A DNA stretch of 34,692 bases from contig NZ_JH556659.1 of NCBI RefSeq assembly GCF_000179595.2, forward strand, positions 380,224 to 414,915, in the 5' to 3' direction. Each line of letters opens with the position of its first letter. Position 1 is the stretch's first letter. Of this stretch, positions 6,174-30,038 are shown in pieces. The translations under genes were made by a program, and so were the position numbers. Source of the DNA: Acetivibrio cellulolyticus CD2. GTDB taxonomy: Bacteria; Bacillota; Clostridia; Acetivibrionales; Acetivibrionaceae. The notes beneath the pieces are model-generated. The model saw only the letters and a program-made list of their open reading frames with translations, had not been told where the DNA came from and did no database searches.

Positions 6174-6383
6174 CCTGTTTTGTGTCAAATGACGCAATTC
6201 CTTGGCCTGAGCATTAGAATCTGTTGCCGAAAGCTTGATAATTTGAAGCAAAAATGCCACGGATGGCATTTTTAGCGTCTCGGGACAGGATGTCCCATAG
6301 ACGCGTGCGAAAATTATCAAGCTGAGGCTACAGATTCTATGCGAAGGTCATGGAATGGAGTCGTTTGACACTAAAACAATAGG
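6174..6383. repeat. Long imperfect palindrome with two internal hairpins (MITE-like or structured RNA)
   Basis: Two arms of about 70 bases face each other. Perfectly paired blocks are TGTCAAA 6183-6189 with 6364-6370, TAGAATCTGT 6215-6224 with 6330-6339, and AGCTTGATAATTT 6232-6244 with 6311-6323. Between the arms sit two hairpins: AAAAATGCCA/TGGCATTTTT at about 6250-6273, and GCGTCT...GGGACA/TGTCCC...AGACGC at about 6275-6304. The whole would fold as a three-way junction in either strand. It fills most of the 409-base gap between the helicase and dus genes and encodes no protein. I do not recognise it as a named RNA family. A non-autonomous transposon (MITE) or an ERIC/REP-like element is the likeliest explanation. 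Confidence 0.75.
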
Positions 6384-6513
6384 TACTACCTTCATGCAGG
6401 TTCCCAAACCGCAGTACCACCGAATTTCATTACTTTTGATTTATATCAATTAACCCACATGGAATACAAAAGAGCCTTGACGTTTATAATAAACTAAATG
6501 AGAGAGTGTGCAT

Positions 6514-7455
6514 ATGAATCTTTTTTTAGCCCCAATACAAGGAATGACAATAGCAGGATACAGGAACGCATTTGCAAGACATTTTGGAAATATTGATGCC
6601 TATTATACCCCGTTTATTTCTTCTTCGGAAGTTGATAAAGTCAATAACTTGCTGTTAAAAGACATTCTTCCCGAGTACAATGACCCGGCAGTTAAGCTTG
6701 TTCCTCAGCTTCTTGGCAATGATGGAGCTCAATTTAAAGCTTTTGCCTGTGCAATTTCGGACATAGGTTACCATGAAATCAACTGGAACATTGGCTGCCC
6801 TTATCCTACAGTAACGAAAAAGAAAAAGGGCTCAGGAATACTGCAACATCCGGACATGATAAAAAAGGTTCTTGATACAGCTTGTTCAGACAGCTCTTAT
6901 ACGGTAACCGTCAAGATGAGGCTTGGCTGGGATAAGCTAGAAGAAGGAATGCGTGTGATGGACGTGCTAAACGACTATCCATTGGGCGGCGTAATAATAC
7001 ATGCCCGTACGGGAATACAGATGTATGAAGGGCATGTAGACTTAGAGGAATTTGAAACGCTTGCTGCCTCCTGCAAACACGAAGTAACCTATAATGGTGA
7101 TATATTTACTCATGATGATTTTCTGCGCATTAGCTCGCGCCTACCTTTTATAAAGAACTTTATGCTGGGAAGAGGAGCCCTGAGTGATCCGTTTCTTCCA
7201 ACTGTTATCAAAGGACAAACGGTTTCGGATGCCAATAAGATCAGCATAGTAAGGGAGTTTCACAACGAGATTTTTAACTATTACAAGTGCAAACTTTCAG
7301 GAGATAAACATTTATGTGATAAAATGAAGGAGTTCTGGTATTACATGCACGTACATTTGGACAAGGACGGCAAGTACATGAAAAAAATTAAAAAATGCCA
7401 TAGGACTTCTGAGTATTTGGAATTGGTAAATCAGATCTTTCATTCTAATTCTTAA
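6514..7455 (+). CDS. tRNA-dihydrouridine synthase family protein
   Basis: This flavoenzyme of the Dus family reduces uridine to dihydrouridine in tRNA. It begins with the FMN-barrel strand MNLFLAPIQGMT and has the catalytic-cysteine motif NIGCPYP (Cys at about 95). VTVKMRLGW, HARTG and YNGDI follow on the barrel, and LGRGALSDPF forms the phosphate-binding region. Length (313 aa) is normal. The active-site loop reads GCPYPTVTKKKKGSGIL, so the usual Gly-Ala after the cysteine loop is replaced by Gly-Ser and the loop is unusually lysine-rich; it may contact tRNA. ATG 6514 is preferred to the in-frame GTG 6508 because GAGAG lies a better distance upstream. The substrate position cannot be assigned. 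It is preceded by the palindromic element and appears to be transcribed alone. Confidence 0.88.
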   Translation: MNLFLAPIQGMTIAGYRNAFARHFGNIDAYYTPFISSSEVDKVNNLLLKDILPEYNDPAVKLVPQLLGNDGAQFKAFACAISDIGYHEINWNIGCPYPTVTKKKKGSGILQHPDMIKKVLDTACSDSSYTVTVKMRLGWDKLEEGMRVMDVLNDYPLGGVIIHARTGIQMYEGHVDLEEFETLAASCKHEVTYNGDIFTHDDFLRISSRLPFIKNFMLGRGALSDPFLPTVIKGQTVSDANKISIVREFHNEIFNYYKCKLSGDKHLCDKMKEFWYYMHVHLDKDGKYMKKIKKCHRTSEYLELVNQIFHSNS

Positions 7456-21411: not shown

Positions 21412-21513
21412 AACGCACCTCACATGATTAATCCTTGGTTCAATTTATTTTAAAATTGTTTACGTAAAAATGCAACTATTTTATCGACTAAAGTAAAAAT
21501 TGGGACTTGTTCT

Positions 21514-21702
21514 GTGGAAGGAATGAGAAAGGTTGAGATAAAAGTAATAGAAATAAAGAAGCTGATTGATCAAAATAGCTTTATTGTTAATAAAATATTG
21601 ACTTATGAAATCCAGAATGATATACTAGAAATTAACGACAAAAGCAGAATGGATAAACCACTACACTTTAATTGTATCACAAAATTAATTGTTTGTCAAT
21701 AG
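21514..21702 (+). CDS. Small hypothetical protein heading the uncharacterised operon
   Basis: This encodes a 62-residue charged peptide with alternating hydrophobic and Lys/Glu/Ile positions (RKVEIKVIEIKKLIDQNSF), predicted soluble, no signal peptide or Cys motif. I do not recognise it. Translation may begin at GTG 21514 (GGGA 8 bases upstream) or at ATG 21523, where GGAAGGA is too close. It ends 33 bases before the next gene on the same strand, so it may belong to that operon. The chance of a spurious ORF is real. Confidence 0.45.
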   Translation: MEGMRKVEIKVIEIKKLIDQNSFIVNKILTYEIQNDILEINDKSRMDKPLHFNCITKLIVCQ

Positions 21703-21735
21703 TATTTTGATAAAAATTTGAAAGGGGTGTTTAAG

Positions 21736-22236
21736 GTGGAGAATAATTTTTTGCTGATAACCACTGGTATACAAAACAATCTCGCCGTTTCGGAAATTAT
21801 AAAATGTAATGAATATACGGCCAGATTTGGCCTGATTTTATCAGAAAGTGAGGTAAAGGAACTTGTAGAAACGCGTACCGAAGCACTTAGTCGTAATGGA
21901 CGTATTGAATTCGGGGGTGGAATTATTGATAAACTGATTAAGGAATTTTGCGATTCTCCTTTCCTTTATCAAGCCAACTATGCAGAAACTATGCATGATT
22001 TGATAGAAACGTTTTATTATTTCAAAAATGAATCTCTTGATGGTATAAGTGATGATGAATTGATTTCTTTAATGAAAAAGTATTTTGATCAGAACTGCCG
22101 TGGTTCTGTTGAATTACTGCAGAATCGCGAATTAGAAACATTAGCGAGGAATATTCGTTATGGTGTTCATGATTATGAAGATATAGATGACAAAGATGAT
22201 TATTATGATGAGGAGGATGATGAGGAAGATGAATAA
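21736..22236 (+). CDS. Uncharacterised protein with acidic tail (possibly DUF6323)
   Basis: This soluble protein of about 166 residues has no signal or membrane segment. The body contains ITTGIQNNLAVSEIIKC, then FGLILSESEVKELVETR, an RIEFGGGIIDKLIKEFCDSPF segment and YAETMHDLIETFYYFKNES, all predicted helical. The end is strongly acidic, with about 16 Asp/Glu among the last 25 residues. From memory this resembles the family catalogued as DUF6323, which I could not verify; the function is unknown. GTG 21736 is chosen because AAAGGGGTG (21721-21729) lies 6 bases before it. Its stop overlaps the start of the next gene, whose ribosome site lies in the acidic-tail codons, so the two proteins are probably partners made in fixed ratio. 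Confidence 0.75.
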   Translation: MENNFLLITTGIQNNLAVSEIIKCNEYTARFGLILSESEVKELVETRTEALSRNGRIEFGGGIIDKLIKEFCDSPFLYQANYAETMHDLIETFYYFKNESLDGISDDELISLMKKYFDQNCRGSVELLQNRELETLARNIRYGVHDYEDIDDKDDYYDEEDDEEDE

Positions 22237-23584
22237 CCTTGAAAAAAAATCTCTTATCAAAAGAGAAGATCTAAATGAAGAACACTATTTTCAGTCAATT
22301 TTACAGGAAGCACATAGGTTGAATTTGTTATCCGATTCTGAAGTAGAGAATATACAAATGCAAAGTATTAAACTTTTGGCTAGACAAACAGAACGCTACA
22401 CAAGAGGGGAAAGCAGTTCGGTCAGAGTAGAGAATGCTCAAAGTATTTTTGAATCTATTTTATATAGCATAGGGATATACCTTAAGAGCCTTCCGGATAC
22501 TGATATAAGTTTAGCGGCAATAAAGCAAAACCCTTTATCTGAGTTGTTTCAAAAGGGCAAAAAGCTTATCGAAAAGAAAGTAAATATCTCGAAACACTTA
22601 CTGCACTTAATACAGAGTGACCATGTTGAAAATAACAATATTGCGTATAACCAAACAATTGAAGAGGGATTACCTGAATTTTTCTCTACTTATGATGCTG
22701 ATTTTGCTGCCCATGATACCACCGGGTCTTTAGATTATCCATTAAATATCGATAAAATGGAGTTTGTTGGCATAGAGTATATTTATAATTATCTTCAAAA
22801 GCTTTATTGGGAGAATAATTTTTGTAAGAATTTTGCTGAGCATGATATTGACTGTGTATTACGAGGTTATGATGAAAAGTATCAGGATTTGCTTGTTAAT
22901 ATATTCAGGATTGTATTTACGAACGCATTAGGATGTATTATAGCAAATAAAAATATTAATAAACTTGAAATCGGACCTGTAGAGAGGCAGTACCTACAAG
23001 AAAAACTGAAAGACTTACCGGAAGATGAGTTGTATGAGGTGTTGAAAAAAACATCTGCAGAGCTTTGCAAGGAGCTTGGTATTGCAAATGAATTTTTATT
23101 AGAATATATTTCCCTCACTTTAATAGAGCTTTCTGGTAGATTAAAAAATGCACTGGAAAATGACCAATTGGCATCTATATTTGTGGATCATAAGGAAAAG
23201 ATTATTAAACCGATTATTCATTTTCTGGATGGCGATAAAATGGAAGATGAGTTGTTTAGGCAATTGGCGACTGAAATTAGAGAGTGCAGGTTTGTAGCAG
23301 ACAAGATATCAATAATTCAAAAGGAGATCCACAGCATTTCAGATTTGGTTGATATTATGGAAGCAGATTGCTTGTTTGAAAATGAATTTATTGATTTTTT
23401 TCAATCATTAGGAGATAATGAACTTGCAATGTTATCCAATTTGCTGCCAATAAATAAAGTGGATTCAACCCTTGCAGAAAGTGAAAAGGAATGGCATGTT
23501 AAACTGGATGAGTACTTTAAAGGTATTGATTTGGTTCGAAGGAATAATATAATAGAAAAAGCTGAAAAAATTGAATTGTGCTAG
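22229..23584 (+). CDS. Uncharacterised 451-aa protein (possibly DUF6179)
   Basis: This soluble, mostly helical protein of about 451 residues is rich in Leu, Glu, Lys and Asn, without a signal peptide, membrane segment or recognisable enzyme motif. Visible features are an N-terminal helical part (HYFQSILQEAHRLNLLSDSEVENIQMQSIKLLARQTERYTRG and onward), a central aromatic stretch near YIYNYLQKLYWENNFCKNF, and a C-terminal helical part. It resembles, from memory, the DUF6179 family; function unknown. ATG 22229 overlaps the stop of the preceding gene (ATGAATAA), with GAGGAAG and AGGAGG in the acidic-tail codons as ribosome sites. An upstream in-frame ATG at 22187 would read through Met/Lys-rich overlap and is rejected. 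Confidence 0.75.
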   Translation: MNNLEKKSLIKREDLNEEHYFQSILQEAHRLNLLSDSEVENIQMQSIKLLARQTERYTRGESSSVRVENAQSIFESILYSIGIYLKSLPDTDISLAAIKQNPLSELFQKGKKLIEKKVNISKHLLHLIQSDHVENNNIAYNQTIEEGLPEFFSTYDADFAAHDTTGSLDYPLNIDKMEFVGIEYIYNYLQKLYWENNFCKNFAEHDIDCVLRGYDEKYQDLLVNIFRIVFTNALGCIIANKNINKLEIGPVERQYLQEKLKDLPEDELYEVLKKTSAELCKELGIANEFLLEYISLTLIELSGRLKNALENDQLASIFVDHKEKIIKPIIHFLDGDKMEDELFRQLATEIRECRFVADKISIIQKEIHSISDLVDIMEADCLFENEFIDFFQSLGDNELAMLSNLLPINKVDSTLAESEKEWHVKLDEYFKGIDLVRRNNIIEKAEKIELC

Positions 23585-23670: not shown

Positions 23671-24051
23671 ATGAAGATTAACAAGAAGTATTTAATTACT
23701 TTCTTAATACTATTTGCTGTGGAAGTTCTTATTGCTCTATTTGTGCATGATAAAATCATCCGGCCGTTTATTGGTGATGTTTTGGTAATAGTTCTGATGT
23801 ATACATTTATCAGGGGAATTACACAAAAAGCGATAAAAGGGCTGCCTATTTACCTTTTCCTTTTTGCTGTCATAGTTGAAGTAACTCAGTATTTTCATCT
23901 TGTAGACATGTTGGGTTTGAGAGATAATAAACTTCTGTCTACGATTATGGGAACTTCTTTTGATATTAGAGATGTTTTATGTTACTTTGCTGGAACAGTT
24001 ATTTTGGTTGCATGGGAGAAGATCGAAAGTAGTAGGGAAAAATCTGCTTGA
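23671..24051 (+). CDS. DUF2809 family small membrane protein
   Basis: The 126-residue protein has about four hydrophobic helices. It matches the DUF2809 pattern: an N-terminal helix, FIRPFIGDVLVIVLMYTFIR-like second segment (here IIRPFIGDVLVIV), FAVIVEVTQYFHLVDMLGL and the C-terminal GTSFDIRDVLCYFAGT. The family is common in Firmicutes and Bacteroidetes and its function is not known. The start is preceded by a GGGGGAAT site, with two TATAAT-like stretches just upstream (23611-23616 and 23631-23636) that lack clear -35 boxes. It follows the uncharacterised operon by 86 bases but may be a separate unit. Confidence 0.8.
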   Translation: MKINKKYLITFLILFAVEVLIALFVHDKIIRPFIGDVLVIVLMYTFIRGITQKAIKGLPIYLFLFAVIVEVTQYFHLVDMLGLRDNKLLSTIMGTSFDIRDVLCYFAGTVILVAWEKIESSREKSA

Positions 24052-28461: not shown

Positions 28462-28732
28462 AATATATTAAACCTGTGATCAAGAAGAGTAAGAATAGTT
28501 ACTTGTATAAGAGAGCCACTAGATGCTGAAAATGTGGTTACAAAGATTATTCTGAATGGACTTGTGAGGGAAGCCCCGAATTTATAAATAGTAGGCGCTT
28601 ACGGGAATCCTGCCCGTTATCATAAGGGTGTATATGTTAGTATACAGATTGAGTGGACGATTTATCGTCAATTTGGGTGGTACCGCAGAAGTTAAGTCTT
28701 TTGTCCCTAGTATAGGGATGAAGGCTTTTTTT
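28462..28732 (+). ncRNA. T-box riboswitch (tryptophan specificity) with terminator
   Basis: The leader carries the hallmark T-box sequence GGGTGGTACCGC at 28675-28686, which pairs with the acceptor end of uncharged tRNA. About 130 bases upstream a likely specifier segment reads CTGAATGGACTTG, placing a UGG (Trp) codon in the loop on the 3' side of Stem I; this fits the trp genes downstream. A GA-motif-like AGAGAG is present at 28510-28515. The element ends in a terminator (28694-28732): GTCCC/GGGA stem extended by AAGTCTT/AAGGCTT, then seven Ts. Uncharged tRNA-Trp should switch it to readthrough. Stem boundaries were judged by eye. Confidence 0.93.
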
Positions 28733-28775: not shown

Positions 28776-28853
28776 ATTTTTAAAGAATTGTCGACAAATG
28801 CTTTGAAGAGTAAGTGATTTGATTAGTAGTATATGAAAGTGAGGAGGATGAAC

Positions 28854-30038
28854 ATGTCAAGAGGAAGATTTGGAATACATGGCGGTCAATACATTCCAGA
28901 GACATTGATGAATGCTGTAATAGAGCTGGAAGAGGCTTATAACCGATTTAAAAATGACCCTGAATTTGTAGCAGAGTTAAATGAACTGCTGAACAATTAT
29001 GCAGGGCGTCCATCATTGCTTTATTACGCAGAGAAAATGACTAAAGACTTGGGCGGTGCAAAGATTTATCTTAAAAGAGAGGACTTGAATCACACAGGTT
29101 CACACAAAATCAACAACGTATTAGGCCAGGTACTTCTTGCAAAACGTATGGGTAAAACACGCGTTATTGCGGAGACCGGTGCAGGTCAACATGGTGTTGC
29201 TACTGCTACAGCTGCAGCTCTGATGGGATTGGAATGCGAGATATTTATGGGTAAGGAAGACACTGAACGTCAGGCGTTAAATGTTTTCCGTATGGAACTT
29301 CTAGGTGCAAAAGTACATGCAGTTACAAGTGGTACTCAAACGTTGAAGGATGCAGTGAATGAGACAATGCGTGAGTGGACGCAGCGCATTACTGACACCC
29401 ATTATGTGCTTGGTTCTGTAATGGGACCTCACCCGTTTCCGACAATTGTACGTGATTTCCAAAGTATAATCGGACGTGAAGTAAAACAGCAGATGTTAGT
29501 CAAGGAAGGAAGACTGCCTGATGCAGTATTGGCTTGTGTGGGTGGCGGCAGTAATGCGATGGGATTGTTTTATGATTTTATAGGAGATAAAAGCGTCCGG
29601 CTAATTGGATGTGAAGCAGCTGGACGCGGTGCTGATACCGACAAGACTGCAGCAACAATTACAACAGGTACAGTGGGTATTTTCCATGGTATGAAGTCCT
29701 ATTTCTGTCAGGACGAGTACGGTCAGATTGCACCGGTTTATTCTATTTCAGCCGGACTTGATTACCCGGGTGTAGGTCCTGAACATGCCAACCTGCATGA
29801 TATTGGCAGGGCTGAATATGTTCCGGTTACGGATGATGAAGCAGTGGCGGCCTTTGAATATCTTTCACGCTGTGAGGGAATTATTCCGGCAATAGAGAGT
29901 TCACATGCCGTTGCACATGCAAGAAAAATTGCACCTGCTATGGGTAAAGATCAAATTATTGTAATCTGTCTGTCAGGAAGAGGAGATAAAGACGTTGCGG
30001 CTATAGCACGTTACAGGGGGGTGCAAATATATGAATAA
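28854..30038 (+). CDS. trpB: Tryptophan synthase beta subunit
   Basis: This 394-residue PLP enzyme joins indole with serine to give tryptophan. It has the PLP-lysine segment HTGSHKINN (Lys 85), [13 protein letters not shown] with the catalytic glutamate (107), GGGSNAMG as the cofactor-phosphate loop, and CLSGRGDKD near the end. It is of the TrpB1 type, which pairs with TrpA. ATG 28854 is chosen for GAGGAGG (28841-28847) at 6-base spacing; two upstream in-frame ATGs add only seven residues. It is controlled by the Trp T-box and overlaps trpA by 8 bases. The other trp biosynthesis genes are not next to it in this window. Confidence 0.97.

Follow-up and report, generated by a model that had tools for sequence, protein, structure and literature searches.

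Two genes of Bacillus subtilis, helD and pps, were reported in 2026, on experimental grounds, to be induced by sub-inhibitory rifampicin via convergent promoters (PMC12802891). In that report, the sense promoter of helD is the weaker one, the antisense RNA is about 90 nt long and terminated, the two transcription starts lie 39 bp apart, and induction is lost when 17 bp are removed; the antisense promoter is also described there as GTP-sensitive. The same paper places such dual promoters before 18,798 genes of many kinds, so that the layout alone is no proof of a role, and suggests that function-less proteins encoded behind them may represent new mechanisms (PMC12802891). Here we describe a two-gene operon of Acetivibrio cellulolyticus CD2, located in a stretch of 34,692 nucleotides that is termed the window.

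The first gene of the operon (21736-22236, + strand) begins with a GTG at 21736, just 3' of a Shine-Dalgarno-like AAAGGGG, and runs to a stop at 22236; it encodes 166 residues, the last 18 of which form an acidic C-terminus (DIDDKDDYYDEEDDEEDE). The second gene (22229-23584, + strand) extends from an ATG at 22229 to a stop at 23584 and encodes 451 residues. The two reading frames have 8 bp in common, in line with the two genes with overlapping ends described in the first-pass annotation, and a GAGGAGG at 22210-22216, within the acid-coding 3' end of the first gene, is a possible Shine-Dalgarno sequence for the second. That annotation had also proposed two DUF numbers, and both were correct: the first protein matches DUF6323 (PF19848; E 2e-54, 183.2 bits against a gathering cut-off of 30.6, profile positions 1-126 of 127) and the second DUF6179 (PF19677; E 1.8e-95, 319.6 bits against a cut-off of 25, profile positions 1-271 of 272), both far above the curated thresholds. 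Pfam lists these as families without a function, and the genomic pairing and promoter layout lie outside its models.

Neither protein had a characterized homologue in our searches by sequence and by fold. NCBIfam gave no match for either protein, the PADLOC models gave 0 matched families, the PDB sequences included none related to DUF6323 and two chance-level matches for DUF6179, and no mention of DUF6323 or DUF6179 was found in the literature searched. Comparison of the two proteins with each other revealed no homology, and PHROG 35374, a candidate match at the C-terminus, was present in 1 of 79 members only. AlphaFold2 models were obtained from alignments that include the window's sequences (81 sequences for DUF6323, without L074; 79 for DUF6179, without L061, L074, and the split L098). 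The DUF6323 model (pLDDT 85.5) consists of six predicted helices followed by a low-confidence acidic tail (residues 151-166), and the DUF6179 model (pLDDT 92.9) is almost entirely helical, matching the acidic-tailed protein and 451-residue helical partner that had been annotated. In Foldseek searches of the PDB, neither model had a match with E ≤ 0.001, the best DUF6323 matches being designed helical repeats (E 0.09), and DUF6179 had none among viral models; as judged by Foldseek alone, both predicted structures are taken as folds without a known relative. DUF6323 is well conserved in the alignment. DUF6179 has at most 420 residues in 23 of 81 loci, fragments included, and copies near 300 residues would, judging by length alone, be without the last ~120 residues of the model. 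In L007 (1170-2730), a tandem duplication of about 60 codons at the start of DUF6179 results in two overlapping frames.

Across the 81 loci of our collection scan (the best 80 of 122 named loci plus one contig from a viral collection), DUF6179 lies directly downstream of DUF6323, in the same order, in every case, and the genes overlap in 54; DUF6179 is split into two frames in L098. In our second set, made up of 22 additional loci from relatives, the two genes are adjacent in 21. L126 of this set holds a DUF6323 remnant alone, and L132 is the only locus seen with a reversed order, its 275-residue DUF6179 frame ending just before DUF6323. Among 299 genomes of the phylum, DUF6179 was detected in 17, DUF6323 in 16, and both in 15; the single-gene genomes carry only fragments or a copy with stops (in G134 the copy lies at a contig start and lacks its N-terminus, in G228 the fragment spans 46 positions, and in G195 the fragment contains two stops). 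The tight coupling of the two genes that had been proposed is thus seen well beyond the window, and the pair is nearly always found together. A putative stoichiometric DUF6323-DUF6179 complex is plausible.

Upstream of the operon, two promoter-like sites face each other. The sense site (21598..21626, + strand; TTGACT-N17-TATACT with a TG extended -10) occupies -138..-110 from the start codon, has an equivalent in most relatives, and predicts an mRNA start at about 21633-21635. The antisense site (21671..21699, - strand; TTGACA-N17-TACAAT, also with a TG extended -10) has the higher consensus score, 12.5 versus 11.5, and an RNA would be expected to start from it at about 21664, a G, and to proceed leftwards. 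The end of the presumed short antisense RNA (21559..21664, - strand) is uncertain, because the terminator-like hairpin found in the window, 89-112 nt downstream of the antisense -10 box, is weak. In G299 (L035/L119), a genome of the same genus, the antisense site is absent from the 158 bp available on its contig.

Both sites (+ 21598-21626 and - 21699-21671) fall inside a 62-codon open reading frame (21514-21702, + strand) that had been put forward as a possible third small protein. We discarded this protein as a candidate, given that the frame has no match in Pfam or NCBIfam and that a tblastn search of 115 loci returned the window genome's own three copies only (next E 0.31). The frame also lies outside the upstream stretch common to the window and the operon-free genome G300 of the same genus, in which similarity stops at 21482. 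It was judged not to be a gene and is probably promoter DNA. RNA elements elsewhere in the window are a T-box leader (28467-28711, + strand, 131.1 bits), which precedes the ORF at 28833-30038, and a TwoAYGGAY motif (6202-6351, + strand, 54.9 bits against a cut-off of 43) upstream of the ORF at 6508-7455.

Equivalents of the two sites recur in the upstream regions of other loci, the + promoter at around -138 and the minus-strand one between about -37 and -65. As controls we used 306 regions, each being the 300 bp before another gene of the same loci. The antisense promoter score was 11 or more in 54 of the 79 upstream regions scanned and in 7 of the 306 controls; the spacer was exactly 17 bp in 51 of the 54. 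The scores were devised on the first loci, and when the antisense score was then applied unchanged to the second set, 15 of 22 loci reached 11. From 107 upstream regions we retained 101, leaving aside L126, which holds a remnant, the duplicate loci L119 (of L035) and L135 (of L110), and L035, L100, and L101 (length or Ns). A facing pair of sigma-A type promoters in the 300 bp before the gene, defined by 20-52 bp between the -10 ends and by consensus only, was present in 63 of these 101 regions, the window included, versus 1 of 306 controls; these settings were picked after both sets had been seen, and some second-set loci are close to first-set ones. After thinning, the facing pair was retained in 46 of 77 clusters at 80% protein identity and in 16 of 29 at 60%. 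Under a looser labelling, 74 of the 101 regions counted as facing (several of them doubtful) and 15 as back to back; another 3 were undecided, and 9 had just a weak antisense site.

Features that were not part of the score also recur. In the extended -10 of the antisense promoter, the TG used for scoring follows a second TG (1.2 bits per position in 38 representatives), and TRTG is the Gram-positive form of this element. In 31 of 46 representatives a G stands exactly 7 nt past the antisense -10 box, and the position before it is a T in 39 of 46, versus a G in 2 of 46 at the same distance on the sense side; because this conserved G sits at the expected start, the antisense RNA is expected to begin with GTP. 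Within the 63 facing loci, the consensus score of the antisense promoter is higher than that of the sense promoter in 44, equal in 16, and lower in 3. We also considered that the antisense promoter could, as a general rule, be the upstream gene's own promoter, and rejected this since the upstream genes are mostly unrelated; by simple ORF-based calls, they are on the - strand in 48 of 80 loci and on the + strand in 32. On this evidence, a conserved antisense promoter very probably opposes the operon. One of the loci with the pair and facing promoter-like sites, L115 (9947-11873), is on the viral-collection contig of 54,685 bases.

A terminator within 85 nt of the antisense promoter was detected in only 10 of 63 facing loci; within 130 nt, terminators were found in 27 of 63 facing loci, 22 of 38 others, and 3 of 306 controls, the window's own being weak. 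Among the 38 non-facing regions, 27 have on the minus strand a promoter that combines an extended -10 with a spacer of 17 bp (versus 49 of 306 controls), and 11 have no such promoter (L057, L061, L099, L105, L109, L111, L116, L132, L133, L134, and L136). Of the 27, 19 also show a strong terminator within 85 nt, both Enterococcus species being among these 19, whereas a single one of the 306 controls has this combination. Fifteen regions, including those of both Enterococcus species, have a back-to-back layout with a weaker + promoter, and in most of these a CAAG-CTTG-like core was seen by eye. The back-to-back hairpin is not just the end of the upstream gene, as that gene is often on the minus strand. 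The two promoters of this layout adjoin, and therefore a polymerase bound at one should exclude the other.

The published dual-promoter motif (PMC12802891), TTGN3N(17,18)[AT]6N(45,55)[AT]6N(18,19)N3CAA, was not enriched when taken literally, with hits in 5 of the 101 operon regions and in 11 of the 306 controls, and the window itself falls outside it, with a 17-bp antisense spacer and a 44-bp gap. When spacers of 16-18 bp were allowed and the promoter shape was specified more fully, 39 of 101 regions matched, versus 1 of 306 controls. Only 22 of the 63 facing pairs lie in the published 45-55 bp range, and 10 have 22-31 bp between the -10 boxes, closer than in the helD deletion that abolishes induction (PMC12802891). 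HelD and PPDK_N genes of relatives were used as a positive control, which failed: a facing pair was detected before 1 of 20 and 2 of 30 of them, respectively, versus 21 of 306 controls, in a scan with slightly looser settings (68 of 101 operon regions there) and 16-19 bp spacers that may miss weaker promoters and that left aside two HelD loci with short upstream DNA. The window genome has a HelD-like gene of its own (G000 C3:33442-35520, L196; 529.9 bits, cut-off 419), with no facing pair upstream in the same scan. Before a PEP-synthase/rifampicin-phosphotransferase-like PPDK_N gene (L157), TGCTATAAT and an inverted TGATATAAT element were seen by eye close together.

What the sequences contain is the pair, its conservation, two opposed promoter-like sites, their spacing, the score asymmetry, and the conserved antisense G. 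From this well-supported promoter layout we infer the function, namely that the promoters fire and interfere, that a trigger relieves the interference, and that the proteins form a complex and act on RNA polymerase. Since the geometry and the asymmetry are common to helD and the operon, the same kind of control may apply and, one step beyond that, an RNA polymerase-linked task, in support of which HelD is commoner in genomes with DUF6323 (11 of 15 versus 54 of 181). DUF6323 and DUF6179 would constitute a co-dependent pair, probably one complex, encoded on an accessory two-gene unit. The stronger promoter of the opposite strand, pointing back at the sense promoter, would produce a short RNA and hold operon transcription down. 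If antisense initiation stalled or slowed, because of an RNA polymerase inhibitor (e.g. a rifamycin) or a fall in GTP, the sense promoter would be freed and the pair made; a GTP fall is a possible trigger given that G is the expected first nucleotide of the antisense RNA. RNA polymerase would be the most likely target or beneficiary of the two proteins, through protection or rescue.

Opposed-promoter control of a co-dependent DUF6323-DUF6179 pair that likely acts on or for RNA polymerase is our best explanation, which we hold tentatively and at somewhat less than even confidence. By analogy with helD, the antisense promoter may serve as an alarm for RNA polymerase inhibitors, which we consider possible with rather more doubt. 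That the proteins themselves protect or rescue RNA polymerase is on the unlikely side, and we regard as equally doubtful the complete picture of a putative two-protein protection or rescue complex, made of two new folds and placed under an antisense-promoter alarm that would sense stalled polymerase or low GTP.

It is also quite possible, if short of probable, that the opposed promoters are real and regulatory but tune the operon by growth state, for example through GTP or free polymerase, with neither the trigger nor the proteins connected to RNA polymerase inhibitors and with the complex doing something else, metabolic or structural. This would suit an antisense promoter that is common to the facing and back-to-back layouts, whereas the rifampicin model fits the facing layout only and the back-to-back layout should not respond by the facing-pair mechanism. 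The bias towards G at the expected antisense start (31 of 46 versus 2 of 46) is compatible with such tuning, as is the published occurrence of convergent promoters before many kinds of genes (PMC12802891). Weak evidence against it comes from HelD (E ≤ 1e-60), which is commoner in genomes with DUF6323 (11 of 15, the G314 remnant counted, versus 54 of 181; p 0.001, uncorrected for relatedness). The corresponding values are 10 of 12 versus 24 of 47 in genomes listed at 2.8 Mb or more (p 0.055, with unlisted sizes uncounted and relatedness uncorrected) and, using the curated HelD cut-off in 40 relatives, 10 of 12 carriers versus 12 of 28 (p 0.035, again uncorrected for relatedness).

Short antisense RNAs of this type are found in type I toxin-antitoxin and RNA-protein systems, and the antisense RNA could itself be the regulator or a working part, pairing with the mRNA leader or being bound by the proteins. 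The minus-strand promoter followed by a terminator would suit such an RNA, and the spacing in facing loci implies an overlap of about 30 nt between the two RNAs. However, the spacing also implies no overlap in the back-to-back layout, there is little conservation between the boxes or in the antisense RNA body, the hairpin of the facing type has no clear covariation support, and no Rfam match in this stretch of the window came near a gathering score. These results do not support a conserved structured antisense RNA, and a role for the RNA itself is improbable.

The distribution of the pair across Firmicutes is patchy: it is present in 12 of 40 relatives and in 15 of 196 genomes of the class (the G314 remnant counted in both). 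Within the genus, G299 has the pair with the same four downstream genes, and G300 keeps the order YbaK-TrmB-DUF2809-metallophosphatase without the pair at that site. The DUF2809 gene, which keeps its place in both genomes, lies 3' of the operon in the window (23671-24051) and encodes 126 residues with a VanZ-like match below the cut-off. The pair is also present, and annotated as such, on megaplasmids of Enterococcus raffinosus and E. gilvus. The patchiness, the empty site in a genome of the same genus, and the arrangement of a small first gene and a larger second one with overlapping ends could indicate a mobile defence or toxin-antitoxin pair. This is nonetheless a still less probable reading, as no PADLOC model matched, no phage record and one viral-collection contig only contained the pair, the 7 plasmid records with it are very large and typed non-mobilizable, DUF6323 is well conserved, and the flanking-gene survey, which sought a recurring partner, revealed no neighbor family at a fixed place (the commonest neighbor cluster occurs in 29 of 81 loci, at scattered positions).

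A tie of the pair to sporulating Firmicutes had also been hinted at, a very improbable link that we dropped: SpoIVA is present in most carriers but is not significantly commoner in them (16 of 17 versus 234 of 282 others in the 299 genomes of the phylum, p 0.32; 13 of 15 versus 127 of 181 in the 196 genomes of the class, p 0.24), a weak comparison because both samples are so rich in SpoIVA, carrier G030 is without a SpoIVA match, G417 and G505 are absent from the genomes listed with SpoIVA, and the pair is carried by Enterococcus, which is non-sporulating, so that a spore-specific role is argued against.

If opposed-promoter control of the pair proves true, the operon would be a concrete candidate for the new mechanisms foreseen in PMC12802891. 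Two function-less families would gain a specific and cheap test, namely induction by sub-inhibitory rifampicin, fidaxomicin, or GTP loss. Such control would also link the helD alarm to a single operon that shows this layout in dozens of species, and would hint that Clostridia possess a natural factor for RNA polymerase tolerance.

Among other known systems, argECBH is a further case of face-to-face promoters, and in the type represented by phage 186 and argECBH both transcripts lead to genes, whereas here the upstream neighbors are for the most part unrelated and occupy either strand. The likeness to phage 186, as cited in PMC12802891 for transcriptional interference, consists of opposed promoters and overlapping transcripts. 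With the bidirectional promoters described in PMC12825309, the back-to-back loci share two adjoining promoters; here, in contrast, 19 of the 38 non-facing loci have a strong terminator within 85 nt of the antisense arm. The closest likeness is to helD and pps, where a sense promoter is likewise faced by an antisense promoter before the gene; the antisense promoter is the stronger one in helD and, by consensus score, in 44 of 63 facing loci here, and the short antisense RNA with a terminator known for helD may have a counterpart here. The distance between starts is 39 bp in helD and would be about 32 bp in the commonest class here, where it is shorter and variable, the antisense spacer is 17 bp instead of the 19 bp of helD and pps, the genes are unrelated to either, and a back-to-back layout also exists (PMC12802891). 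What is new is an operon of two function-less families before which a predicted sense promoter and a usually stronger predicted antisense promoter face each other.
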